Below, piece by piece: positions 29,389-35,142 of a DNA stretch of 35,408 nucleotides (position 1 is its first letter; each line of letters begins with the position of its first letter). The notes below the pieces were generated by a model, which was not told the origin of the DNA, made no database searches, and saw nothing but the letters and a program-made list of their open reading frames with translations. A program made the translations under genes and the position numbers. Source of the stretch: Synechococcales cyanobacterium bin59.metabat.ball.084 (GTDB taxonomy: Bacteria > Cyanobacteriota > Cyanobacteriia > Cyanobacteriales > Chamaesiphonaceae); NCBI GenBank assembly GCA_013297675.1, contig JAAFHZ010000037.1, forward strand, positions 1-35,408, given 5' to 3'.

Positions 29389-30075
29389 TTAGCCGCGACC
29401 GCGAGGCTTAGTTCTAGGTTTGCGTTGCTCAGGAGCAAAAGGTTGATCAGGTGTAACTGGAGCAGTAGGTGCAATTGCACAACTACAACCATTAGCACCA
29501 CCAGCAATGATAACGAAGTCATTAAAGTCGTCATCATTTCTGGCAGCTCCAGTAACTTGCCTACCGACAGCTTGGTCATCCCAGTTGATTTTGACTCCTT
29601 GAGAACCTAAGCCCTCAAAGCCTTTATCAAATTTAGTCTGCTGGCGATTATTGGGGTTTTTCAGATCATTGGAGAACACCAAAGAAGCGACCCGACCACT
29701 GCCAGTTCTGGACTCTAGATAGAGAGTGTAGGGAGTGTTCGCTTTGAAGGTAAAGGTGTTTTTGGGTTGACTGACAGCATTGCCGGGAGTACCCAAAAAG
29801 TCGGTTGCTTTGTTGACAGCACGTTCGTTACTGTCAGAAGGCTTGTCTTCTTTAATCAGAGGAGTTTTTTCACCACTGTTTAAATCCATTACACCGAAGG
29901 TTGCCAAGAAAGAGCCATGAGATTCTAAGAACTCAAAGTCGATCGCGGTATCAGTGTCAAAGGTAATTGCATTACTGCCAAACTCATCGGCGGCGAAGGC
30001 TGCGGGGGCGGCCAAACCTAGAAGAGCAGCACCGGCGAAGCCAGCACCCAAAATAGATAGAAATTTGTTTGCCAT
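29389..30075 (-). CDS. Exported DUF4114-like protein
   Basis: A 228-residue protein with a signal peptide of about 29 residues (MANKFLSILGAGFAGAALLG, cleavage likely after AFA). The body is a beta-rich domain (DFEFLESHGSFLATFGV, NTFTFKANTPYTLYLESRTG) ending in NWDDQAVGRQVTGAARNDDD followed by FNDFVIIAG, a pattern seen near the end of DUF4114-type secreted domains. A GCSCA motif follows, then a Pro-rich tail ending in basic RKPRTKPRGRG. The function is unknown; the acidic DDDFND segment could bind calcium. It is the last of three closely spaced genes for exported proteins (33 nt from the next) and converges on purQ at a shared terminator. Confidence 0.75.
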   Translation of the reverse strand: MANKFLSILGAGFAGAALLGLAAPAAFAADEFGSNAITFDTDTAIDFEFLESHGSFLATFGVMDLNSGEKTPLIKEDKPSDSNERAVNKATDFLGTPGNAVSQPKNTFTFKANTPYTLYLESRTGSGRVASLVFSNDLKNPNNRQQTKFDKGFEGLGSQGVKINWDDQAVGRQVTGAARNDDDFNDFVIIAGGANGCSCAIAPTAPVTPDQPFAPEQRKPRTKPRGRG

Positions 30076-30108
30076 TGTTTTAGTTGTTTCAGGGTTTAGA
30101 GAGTGATA

Positions 30109-30600
30109 CTACCAAGTAGGGCCGACTTGAGCGCCAGATGTAGCAGCGCCTAATTTGTCCGGACCAGGATTCTTCACTGATTCTAAGAAAGCAGCCGCGT
30201 CAGCTTGCGCTTTCGCTAAGTTTGCTTCTAATTGAGCACGCTCTTGTGCTCCACCATCACCGGCTGGCTTGGCACAATTACATTCCTGACTACCACGTGC
30301 AAAGTATCTAGGGCCAGAAGGACCAGCAGGTGGTGGAGTAAAAGAATTCAAGGCATTTTGAGCCGCAGCTAACTGCTGTTGCAAAGACTGCGCTTGACCA
30401 AGGGTATTGGAATTAAACCCGGCACTGCCAGCAGAACCAGAAAAACCCTGCCCAGGAGTGGAACTATTAGAGTTGTTAAAACCCGAAAAGTTCGAGTTAT
30501 TGGTGCCTGTAGCGTTAGAGTTGTTAAATTGGGCGGAAGCTGGAGCAGCGAAGCAAGCGGCAGCCAGCACAGCAGCGGCGAGGCTATCACGTAATTTCAT
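30109..30600 (-). CDS. Exported Asn/Ser/Gly-rich protein
   Basis: A 163-residue protein that I do not recognise. A signal peptide (MKLRDSLAAAVLAAACFAAP, cleaved near ASA) is followed by an Asn/Ser/Gly-rich stretch (GTNNSNFSGFNNSNSS), a helical Gln/Ala segment (LGQAQSLQQQLAAAQNALNS), a Pro/Gly region, and GSQECNCAKPAGDGG. That is a CxCA motif like the one in the downstream protein. The C-terminus is another Ala-rich helix. A ribosome site AGGA sits about 9 nt upstream. It is the middle gene of the exported trio, 33 nt from both neighbours. Confidence 0.65.
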   Translation of the reverse strand: MKLRDSLAAAVLAAACFAAPASAQFNNSNATGTNNSNFSGFNNSNSSTPGQGFSGSAGSAGFNSNTLGQAQSLQQQLAAAQNALNSFTPPPAGPSGPRYFARGSQECNCAKPAGDGGAQERAQLEANLAKAQADAAAFLESVKNPGPDKLGAATSGAQVGPTW

Positions 30601-30633
30601 AATTTGTTTTCCTGAGAATTATAATTTGTCAAC

Positions 30634-31851
30634 CTAGAACTTAAAGGCAGTTCCAACACCCAGCACAAACCGCGCACTTTGATTATTGACACCAGATATA
30701 TCACGGAATGCTGGAGTAATAACTAGCGGAAAGCCATCAAAAGAGAACGAAAGACCAGCAGCCAAGTCTTGGCCAGTCCATTCCACAATTGCACTAACGG
30801 GCTTAGCTAAACGGAGAGCCGCCGAACCGAAAACATTTACACCCCCAGCATTTAAGTTGGTGCTAGTTGTGGTGCTAGACAAGAACTGTCCACCTCCGAC
30901 ACCTGCCGAGAGAGAAATTCTACTGAGGAAACTCTCAAGTTCTTCGGTGGTACGGAGCACTTGAGTGGCAACTGCATAGTAAGAGTTGCGGGGAAAGTCG
31001 CTGGCAGTGCCAGTGTTACCGAAAGTAACGTTGGCGAAACGATTCCAGCCCACGGCCACAGCACTATCCCCAAAACGCTTGTGTAGCTTGGCATTAAAAC
31101 CGCCGCTACCAAATCCTTGGCTAGTACCAAAACTATTAATAGTGTATGAAAGCTCTAAGCCCACGGCATCGTTAGCATCAAATAGACCCACTCCAACGCC
31201 TAGCTCACCATCGGACTGTGATGTACCACGAGTACGAAACTGATAGCTACCAGACAAGAAACCTACGCCACCATCAGCACCAAAGCCGACTGGGTTATTG
31301 ATGCTCAACGCTGGAGATATACTAAACCCTTGAGAGTTAGGTGCAGCTACTGGGAACTTTTGACTGTTCAGCTCTCCGAGTTGTCTGTCTAAATCAGCCG
31401 TAGTTTGAGAATTCTGAGACAATAGATTAGTATTTTCTGCTTTAGCTGGCTGCAACTGAGTGCTAGCTGGGGCAGATTTAAGAGCAGTTGGCTGTTTAGC
31501 TTTTTTCTTGTTGGTTGGTCTTCCTGCTAATTTAGTAGTAGCAAAAGGATTATCAAGGTTATCTACAGCTACTGGCTCAGAGAAAGTTACCGACTCTAAG
31601 GGTGCTACTGGCTGGCTAACAGTGCCAAAAGGATCTGCTGCGGCTATTTTTTGGGCAGGAGCAAAGCTTTCTGCACTAGCAAAAGGATCTGATAAGTTAG
31701 CACTGTTGTCTGCCAAACCATTTGCCTTGCTGTCAGCCAGATTAGTGGATGGATCGGCAACTACGTCGAAATTGCCTGCTGCCTGACTGGGCATTTCTGC
31801 AACTATGGGCAAAAAGCAAGCTAGGCTTACCGACCACAATAATCGTTTCAT
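30634..31851 (-). CDS. Outer-membrane beta-barrel protein
   Basis: A 405-residue protein with a signal peptide (MKRLLWSVSLACFLPIVAEM, cleaved near SQA), a low-complexity linker (residues 27-175: Ala/Asn/Lys/Pro-rich, with DPFA and DNPFAT repeats) and a C-terminal barrel of alternating strands from about residue 185 (VGFLSGSYQFRTRGT, LGVGVGLFDANDAVGLELSY, NSFGTSQGFGSG), ending in a typical aromatic end FVLGVGTAFKF. The ribosome site GGGAG is about 9 nt before the ATG. It is first of three genes for exported proteins, so it may be the outer-membrane partner of the other two. No known substrate family is recognised. Confidence 0.78.
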   Translation of the reverse strand: MKRLLWSVSLACFLPIVAEMPSQAAGNFDVVADPSTNLADSKANGLADNSANLSDPFASAESFAPAQKIAAADPFGTVSQPVAPLESVTFSEPVAVDNLDNPFATTKLAGRPTNKKKAKQPTALKSAPASTQLQPAKAENTNLLSQNSQTTADLDRQLGELNSQKFPVAAPNSQGFSISPALSINNPVGFGADGGVGFLSGSYQFRTRGTSQSDGELGVGVGLFDANDAVGLELSYTINSFGTSQGFGSGGFNAKLHKRFGDSAVAVGWNRFANVTFGNTGTASDFPRNSYYAVATQVLRTTEELESFLSRISLSAGVGGGQFLSSTTTSTNLNAGGVNVFGSAALRLAKPVSAIVEWTGQDLAAGLSFSFDGFPLVITPAFRDISGVNNQSARFVLGVGTAFKF

Positions 31852-33132: not shown

Positions 33133-33148
33133 AATAGACATCCAATCT

Positions 33149-33233
33149 GGAGAGGTGGCAGAGTGGTCGATTGCGTCCGACTTGAAATCGGATGAAGTGA
33201 AAGCTTCCGAGAGTTCGAATCTCTCCTTCTCCG
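33149..33233 (+). tRNA. tRNA-Ser (anticodon UGA)
   Basis: A type II tRNA of 85 nt with a long variable arm. The acceptor stem is GGAGAGG with CTTCTCC, with one G-T wobble. The anticodon loop is CTTGAAA, reading UCA/UCN. The T arm is GAGAG-TTCGAAT-CTCTC. No 3' CCA is encoded. A strong hairpin follows at 33239. Confidence 0.95.
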
Positions 33234-33238
33234 TGTTA

Positions 33239-33294: not shown

Positions 33295-35142
33295 CTAGTG
33301 GTAGCGCCAAGTGGTAGTACCTTTTTTGTCGATCAACTCAATACCCTTCGCCTCTAACTCTTGGCGAATTCGATCGGCCTCCGCAAAATTCTTATCCTGA
33401 CGAGCTTTGTTGCGCTGATCTACCAAAGCATCAATTTCTGCATCAGACTGATCGGAGAGCTGCTCGATAGCTGCTGCCGCCTTTACCTCTAAGCCCAACA
33501 CATGAGCCAAAACGGAGAGTTCTTGCCACTGCCGAAATAACACCCCAGATTCTACGGTCAGCTCAGCGCCATGATTTAGATTATTAGCTTGTTTACCCAA
33601 GCTCTTAGCTAACTCAAACAATACTGCTAAGCCACCGGCAAAGTTAAAGTCTTCATCTACCGCCATACAAAATTTTTGGAAGCTGGTACTTTGGGCATCG
33701 GCGGTTGCGATGGCTGCGGTCTGCATTACTGCTGCCTGAGTAGCGGGTTTTGGAGCAGATCGATCCTTAAAGATGGCGGTCAACAGTCCCCTCAAGGTGG
33801 CAAAAAATCTTTCCCGAGGAGCTTTAAACAAAATAGTGCGGGCAAATACGACTAAACCAACCACCTTGAAGAATTCTGGTAACACCGGCACGGTATTGAA
33901 ATTAGAGATAAAGCTGGCTAAGAACTTAATGGGGAACTGGGTGAAAAATAAAATCACCGCCAGCACAATTAAGCCTCGATATTCTAAGCCAAACTTGCGG
34001 GCATTATCAGGCAGAGTAACAAAAGGAGCCAAGGGCAACACGTCTTCTAAAGAGCTAAAAGAACTCTGGGGAGCAGCAGGCAGCTCAGGAGCCTTAGGCG
34101 CTTCCGCATTCAAATCCCAGCCTAGTTTTGCCCCAAATTGGGCACCAAAGAGCAGACCGGTTTTCAAGGTTTGCCAACTGGTGGCATTGCTGGCCAAGGC
34201 GGTTTTGGTGAAATCTAGGGGCTTCCGATATTGCGCCGTAAGAATAAACAATCGCACCACCATCGGATCTACCGGGTCAGGCGATCGATCCAATAGATCC
34301 TGAATAGTTGTGAAGTTACCCAAAGACTTGGACATCTTCACTCCATTTACTACCACCATGCCATTGTGCATCCAGTACTTAGCCAAAGGATGATTGTGAG
34401 CGCCTTCGGACTGGGCGATTTCGTTTTCGTGGTGAGGAAAGATCAGATCACTACCGCCGCAGTGAATATCAATTTCACCATCAAAAGCTGCATCAATCAT
34501 CGCCGAACATTCAATGTGCCAGCCCGGTCTTCCTTTACCCCAAGGGGAATCCCAGGAGGGTTCGCCCTCTTTGGCACTCTTCCACAGGGCAAAGTCGCCG
34601 GGGTTTTCTTTTTGTTCTGCGGAATCTTCTACTCGACCACTAGCTCCGGCCAGCATATCTTCTAGCTTGCGGCCAGAAAGTTTCCCATAGCCCGGAAATT
34701 TGGCCACTCGATAATATACATCTCCAGCAGCAGCATAGGCCAAGCCTTTGGTTTCGAGATCTTTAATCAGGTCAATAATTTGGCTAATGTGCTCGGTTGC
34801 CCGAGGGTAACTGGTAGCGGGCTTGACGTTTAAGCGTGCCAAGTCGGCTAAATAAGCCTCAATGTATTTACCGGCCACAGCTTCCATCGAAGAATCTTGC
34901 TCTCGGGCACGATTTAGAATTTTGTCATCAATGTCTGTAAAGTTTTGAATATATTTGACGCTGTAGCCGCGCCATTCTAAATAGCGTCGCACTGTATCCC
35001 AGACCACATAAGAACGACCATGACCCACATGGCATAAGTCATACACCGTCACACCACAGCAATACATATTCACCTGCTGCGGCACCAAGGGCTGGAACGG
35101 CTCTTTTTGAGAAGTAAGGGTGTTATAAATACTAATGCTCAT
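33295..35142 (-). CDS. cysS: Cysteinyl-tRNA synthetase with an inserted two-TM CAAD/CURT1-like domain
   Basis: CysRS charges tRNA-Cys. The class I signatures are intact: HVGHGR (HIGH type) at residues 38-43 and KMSKS at 269-273. Zinc ligands Cys28 and Cys212 and the HH pair at 237-238 align with E. coli. At 615 residues it is about 150 longer than usual. The extra segment lies at about 340-485, between the catalytic core and the C-terminal tRNA-binding domain, which resumes at FCMAVDEDFNFAGG. It contains two hydrophobic helices (LIVLAVILFFTQF, 390-402, and KVVGLVVFARTILF, 426-439) in the arrangement LPEFFKVVGLVVFARTILFK followed by APRERF, very like the CURT1/CAAD domain. This would tether the enzyme to a membrane, probably the thylakoid. 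Flanking linkers are Ala/Pro-rich. It is divergent from the CobW-type gene. Confidence 0.93.
   Translation of the reverse strand: MSISIYNTLTSQKEPFQPLVPQQVNMYCCGVTVYDLCHVGHGRSYVVWDTVRRYLEWRGYSVKYIQNFTDIDDKILNRAREQDSSMEAVAGKYIEAYLADLARLNVKPATSYPRATEHISQIIDLIKDLETKGLAYAAAGDVYYRVAKFPGYGKLSGRKLEDMLAGASGRVEDSAEQKENPGDFALWKSAKEGEPSWDSPWGKGRPGWHIECSAMIDAAFDGEIDIHCGGSDLIFPHHENEIAQSEGAHNHPLAKYWMHNGMVVVNGVKMSKSLGNFTTIQDLLDRSPDPVDPMVVRLFILTAQYRKPLDFTKTALASNATSWQTLKTGLLFGAQFGAKLGWDLNAEAPKAPELPAAPQSSFSSLEDVLPLAPFVTLPDNARKFGLEYRGLIVLAVILFFTQFPIKFLASFISNFNTVPVLPEFFKVVGLVVFARTILFKAPRERFFATLRGLLTAIFKDRSAPKPATQAAVMQTAAIATADAQSTSFQKFCMAVDEDFNFAGGLAVLFELAKSLGKQANNLNHGAELTVESGVLFRQWQELSVLAHVLGLEVKAAAAIEQLSDQSDAEIDALVDQRNKARQDKNFAEADRIRQELEAKGIELIDKKGTTTWRYH

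Follow-up and report, generated by a model that had tools for sequence, protein, structure and literature searches.

A divergent CAAD domain inside the cysteinyl-tRNA synthetase of a Chamaesiphonaceae cyanobacterium, a predicted membrane anchor for Cys-tRNA charging

The cysteinyl-tRNA synthetase (CysRS) of a Chamaesiphonaceae cyanobacterium contains an internal CAAD domain, related to Curt1, and this predicted membrane hairpin very probably anchors Cys-tRNA charging to a membrane, which would most plausibly be the thylakoid. The gene was found in a contig stretch of 35,408 nucleotides, here called the window, and was compared with CysRS genes and CAAD domains of other cyanobacteria. It is a real, rare and conserved gene for a CysRS with a CAAD anchor (CysRS-C), and looks like a second CysRS-C lineage.

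The cysS gene is an open reading frame of 615 aa at 33295..35142 on the minus strand and gave the sole CysRS match in a genome that is 99.59% complete. The second match of that protein search was Curt1, and no CAAD-less CysRS paralogue was found in this genome. The window CysRS scored 536.9 bits with the NCBIfam model TIGR00435 (cysS), well above the cut-off of 340, and Pfam placed tRNA-synt_1e at residues 16-318, DALR_2 at 490-551 and CysS_C at 567-613. Combined with PDB alignment, this delimits an N-terminal, catalytic part (residues 1-342; 34117..35142, minus strand) and a C-terminal part with DALR_2 and CysS_C (residues 487-615; 33298..33684, minus strand). HVGH (38-41) and KMSKS (269-273) are present, and C29, C212, H237 and E241 align with the zinc ligands of the E. 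coli enzyme (1li5 alignment). All four presumed ligands are invariant across the 25 CysRS rows of a structure alignment (A3), which held the window and 24 of 27 named loci after L041, L044 and L055 had been excluded as partial or chimeric. The top matches of a PDB sequence search were the CysRS chains 8qhp and 1li5, and the predicted model had as its top Foldseek match CysRS bound to tRNA-Cys (1u0b, E 1.9e-43). The window ORF encodes a single intact CysRS, predicted to charge tRNA-Cys. Just 3' of cysS, on the opposite strand, lies a tRNA-Ser gene with a TGA anticodon (33148-33234, plus strand); three ORFs of 228, 163 and 405 aa that lie next to one another (29389-31851, minus strand) gave no Pfam match at E 1e-5.

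Between the catalytic part and the DALR domain sits an insert of ~144 residues (about 343-486; 33685..34116, minus strand), built as linker, CAAD domain and linker. It was delimited in an alignment of the best-scoring 30 CysRS loci (the window and 29 more) from the 58 genomes with a match, where it stands after ...KLGW and before F..A.D.DFNF, a site equivalent to that between about residues 323 and 334 of E. coli CysRS. A short linker fills this loop in 26 of the 30 rows, and roughly 135-160 residues fill it in the remaining four. The insert holds two 19-residue hydrophobic peaks, at residues 391-409 (33916..33972, minus strand; peak value 2.22) and 420-438 (33829..33885, minus strand; 1.71), so that, judged by hydrophobicity, it would possess the two membrane helices of a CAAD domain. 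No charged residues occur in the loop between the hydrophobic helices; on the C side of the hairpin there are 7 basic residues and 2 acidic ones, whereas the N side, with 3 and 2 respectively, is only slightly basic. In the full-length structure model, which is of low confidence over the insert (pLDDT 25-49 in most 10-residue blocks), helices span residues 384-400, 405-413, 421-438 and 443-458, and a model of the insert alone, also of low confidence (mean pLDDT 48), resembles it. The last of these helices, likewise predicted at low confidence, follows the second hydrophobic helix, is basic (33769..33816, minus strand) and has a hydrophobic moment of 0.33. The GC and GC3 contents of the insert are near those of the remaining gene.

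The match to Pfam CAAD (PF14159) covers residues 387-457 (33772..33984, minus strand) and was obtained with the whole window CysRS (E 3.7e-5, 23.9 bits), with the insert alone (E 3.4e-6, 27.3 bits) and in a profile search of the genome (E 7.0e-6, 28.1 bits). Both members of the window genus miss the curated Pfam cut-off, with 23.7-28.1 bits vs 30.7 bits. The CysRS inserts of two genomes of another family, f22, lie at the same loop and exceed it (54.9 and 55.3 bits). Profile-profile comparison by hhalign aligned the inserts of the window and its congener with 11 Curt1 sequences at E 6.2e-6 (probability 85), and the match to Curt1 reached E 5e-15 (probability 98) once the f22 pair and flanks were included. 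A profile that we built from 7 Curt1 sequences gave no more than a weak hit to the window CysRS (E 0.0058, 12.7 bits) and none to the congener CysRS at E 0.01; direct protein comparison of the genome's own Curt1 with the window CysRS gave E 0.0023 at 29% identity. In the control searches, one of 14 non-cyanobacterial genomes, that of Corynebacterium glutamicum, gave a match below the cut-off at E up to 0.1. With the limit lowered to E 0.001, Synechococcus elongatus was the one control genome to match CAAD among the matches listed.

Because of the profile-profile matches and the f22 inserts that score above the cut-off, we take the insert, on sequence comparison, to be a divergent CAAD domain related to Curt1. 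An unrelated membrane insert was considered and is ruled out by the CAAD and Curt1 profile matches. The sequence-only reading had described intact catalytic and anticodon-side parts of CysRS, separated by about 150 extra residues with two membrane helices and a resemblance to CAAD/CURT1. All of this holds: the TIGR00435 score and the Pfam domains of both halves bear out the intact enzyme, the ~144-residue insert and its two hydrophobic peaks the extra segment, and the Pfam match of the insert (E 3.4e-6) with the profile-profile matches (E 6e-6 to 5e-15) the resemblance. Curt1 (CURT1) itself is homologous to the insert at the level of the domain, but is a stand-alone protein with a full-length second helix, whereas that of the window CysRS is short. 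The window genome also holds such a stand-alone Curt1 (C156:10074-10325; 111 bits; open frame of 148 aa). In the Chamaesiphon genomes G003, G004 and G009 (L075, L079 and L080), Curt1-like ORFs are longer, at 272-335 aa, and have an N-terminal part that is long and acidic; in G003 and G009 they are accompanied by a Curt1 of about 150 aa.

An insert in a metagenome-assembled gene could be an artefact of assembly or gene prediction, and the window genome is indeed fragmentary (220 contigs). We regard this as a negligible risk because the same gene with the same insert is present in the separate genome of the congener (G001), at 92% identity overall and 82% over the insert with its flanks, and because the CAAD core is constrained. 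In addition, f22 carries another version of the insert at the same loop, in one member (G057) on a contig of 5.3 Mb. For dN/dS between window and congener, NG86 gave 0.03 and 0.05 (the two bodies), 0.075 (CAAD core) and 0.19 and 0.15 (linkers), and YN00 gave 0.04 (N-terminal body), 0.23 (CAAD core) and 0.46 (second linker). The CAAD core is under purifying selection. On the congener gene and this constraint, the artefact explanation was rejected.

The CAAD domains of tRNA synthetases are treated in a Front Microbiol paper by Santamaria-Gomez et al. 2016, cited here as PMC4893482. Its available text reports CAAD in Val, Ile, Glu, Leu, Arg, Cys and Met synthetases, describes internal insertion as usual, with the Arg, Met and Cys types all internal, and counts IleRS-C in 11 species and CysRS-C in one of 279 cyanobacterial species, combined there with LeuRS-C (PMC4893482). 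The statement in the sequence-only reading that CAAD is added to Glu, Ile, Leu and Val synthetases is thus confirmed and widened by Arg, Cys and Met; a copy inside CysRS, which that reading singled out as worth examining, is not a novelty, since a CysRS with CAAD is already listed there. By title, no further paper on a CysRS with CAAD came up in the literature searched. The published CysRS-C is the same enzyme and, like that of the window, has no paralogue, as far as the accessible part of PMC4893482 goes; it differs in that its species also has LeuRS-C, whereas the window CysRS carries the only synthetase CAAD detectable in its genome, and in that the window CAAD scores under the Pfam cut-off. 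Both f22 genomes have LeuRS-C together with CysRS-C (one LeuRS being assigned by NCBIfam) and so match the published combination, as the available text gives it. A CysRS-CAAD lineage without LeuRS-CAAD was not found in the literature searched.

CysRS-C is rare. When an order-wide draw was searched with a model covering the insert plus flanking sequence, 4 of 388 genomes and 2 of 149 genera had it, the carriers being the window genome, its congener and the two genomes of f22 (2/2 in that family). A class-wide draw gave the window genome itself (1/388), and the class survey repeated around the genome G031 gave G031 itself (1/388); these three draws scored at most 7 first-look candidates per genome, so that carriers may have been missed. 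Among the 27 named CysRS loci, the congener alone shared the insert. In the window genome just Curt1 and CysRS matched CAAD at E up to 0.1, with no other CAAD synthetase; because this absence rests on a profile search to that threshold, a strongly diverged second CAAD could be missed.

Other CysRS genes in the sample have oddities of their own. The Microcoleaceae-type CysRS of L048 and L050 and the CysRS of genome G042 (L116) contain about 40-50 extra repeat-like residues (NPPQPPLGKGGSKNEDSLGKGGSK...), placed after ...DLLEGNW, past the KMSKS region, and different in all three. The pattern looks like that of a short dispersed repeat spreading in frame. The CysRS of L051, L053, L054 and L058 are comparably long. 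In a Microcoleaceae MAG (UBA9251), one 945-aa ORF (L044:117-2951) joins a repeat-rich TPR-like protein to the C-terminal part of CysRS, and its junction lies at a similar repeat peptide (APTQGGSK); the repeat may have served as a recombination site, or the assembly may be chimeric here.

The history of the domain within CysRS was followed in two trees. In the tree of CysRS bodies, built from the same 30 loci with the insert removed, the f22 pair nests among non-carriers (97/88), and Chamaesiphon is where the window pair groups (95/84, on long branches that the tool flagged). A single clade of the four carriers was rejected (AU p 0.0019; 0.012 without Chamaesiphon), and these tests lend no support to lateral transfer of an entire CysRS from one carrier lineage to the other. 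In the CAAD tree (46 rows, without repeat loci of the same gene, one extra Curt1-like gene of G009 (272 aa) and an incomplete copy of another), the CysRS CAADs cluster at 98/99, again on long, flagged branches. They also share a change of length. Of 36 CAAD rows, 34 were compared, without the two of lowest significance (E 0.013 and 0.07); the match falls short of the Pfam model by exactly four residues, or about one helical turn, in all four CysRS and in none of the 30 others. The gap sits in the second helix, next to residues 434/435 of the window CysRS. This shortening common to both CysRS lineages was not found in the literature searched, and the CysRS version of CAAD can be traced by its shortened helix.

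That CAAD entered cysS once, with the present carriers left by descent and numerous losses, or with the part of cysS that holds the insert passed on by transfer, has in our judgement slightly less than an even chance. It would explain why both lineages use the same loop, share the same four-residue shortening and group at 98/99, but it has to be reconciled with CysRS bodies that are not sisters and with a weak CAAD tree. Because the domain is short and the branches are long, five other groupings are unrejected (p 0.06-0.31): the window CAAD with that of Chamaesiphon IleRS (p 0.14), with its own Curt1 (0.06) or with a ValRS (0.31), and the f22 CysRS CAAD with its LeuRS CAAD (0.14) or with Curt1 (0.16). 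Moreover, when one CysRS pair was omitted, the nearest rows of the other were GluRS-type CAADs, different for each pair. A tentative alternative, to which we give a somewhat lower probability, is that CAAD was inserted twice, independently, into a permissive loop and that the second helix was shortened by convergence. This would fit the separation of the carriers in the body tree and has a precedent in ValRS, for which the available text of PMC4893482 describes two alternative CAAD insertion points from separate events; against this, two separate events would have to agree both in the site and in the shortening by four residues. One origin, with loss or module transfer, and two origins are nearly level.

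Whatever its history, the domain suggests how the enzyme may be held. The two-helix hairpin would enter the membrane and return, leaving both halves of the enzyme in the cytosol, an arrangement that fits because the loop is uncharged and the C side basic, the N side being weakly so. A full crossing of the membrane is uncertain because the second helix is four residues short, and given this shortening a re-entrant loop is possible. Tethered in this way, CysRS would charge tRNA-Cys at the membrane. The thylakoid is the most likely one if the enzyme behaves like ValRS-C and LeuRS-C, both of which localise there according to the available part of PMC4893482. Because one CysRS was found in the genome, Cys-tRNA charging would be wholly membrane-bound. 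The closest studied case is ValRS-C of Anabaena PCC 7120, likewise a class I synthetase with an internal CAAD; it is a different synthetase, and one for which membrane localisation and activity are reported, including targeting to the membrane in E. coli (PMC4893482, available text). CAAD would probably alter catalysis little, as reported there for the Anabaena enzyme. The same paper reports that fusions of CAAD synthetases or their CAAD to GFP were for the most part toxic when expressed in Anabaena. Of the tethering of Cys charging that the sequence-only reading proposed, the CAAD assignment and the two predicted helices give support, and from them we infer the tethering itself.

The sister genus carries CAAD in another enzyme. 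In Chamaesiphon, the other genus of the window family, CAAD is found in IleRS in 9/9 genomes (two as contig-end pieces), the CysRS insert is absent from all eight readable CysRS, and no CysRS-C match occurs in any of the 9 genomes; G008, 77% complete, gave no CysRS match. The window genus shows the reverse, with CAAD in CysRS (2/2) and not in IleRS (0/2). The IleRS of G001 is intact, in a frame of 967 aa without CAAD, and that of G000 consists of two contig-end pieces in which the region matching the Chamaesiphon CAAD site is readable and lacks the domain. Chamaesiphon IleRS-C is thus alike in having CAAD in one class I synthetase within the same GTDB family, but differs in the enzyme and in a second helix that is not shortened; its CAAD did not group with that of the window in the tree, although such a grouping was not rejected (p 0.14). 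Chamaesiphon may be represented among the 11 IleRS-C species counted in PMC4893482. Sister genera with different enzymes anchored were not found in the literature searched.

This reversal would fit a generic anchor, by which one or another class I synthetase has to sit on the membrane in this lineage, the carrier enzyme is interchangeable, and the main role lies at the membrane, in ATP synthase contact or curvature, rather than in cysteine charging as such. The CAAD-dependent co-purification of ATP synthase subunits, described in the available text of PMC4893482, points the same way; however, that the window genome anchors a lone synthetase rests on the profile search to E 0.1, from which a diverged CAAD could escape. 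We hold this explanation to be rather doubtful as matters stand. Unlikely, in our estimate, is the more specific course of events in which the anchor switched host between IleRS and CysRS within one family and the shortened CysRS CAAD module also spread between unrelated cysS genes. If it did happen, selection would act on having any class I synthetase at the membrane and not on a particular amino acid.

PMC4893482, to the extent of its available text, does not settle what leads some cyanobacteria to fix one or two of their tRNA synthetases to membranes. We see the most useful new point in the difference between sister genera as to which enzyme is anchored. The window genome is a clean case, CysRS being its only synthetase with a detectable CAAD, and the two genera together form a natural experiment that sets amino-acid-specific explanations of the anchor against generic ones.
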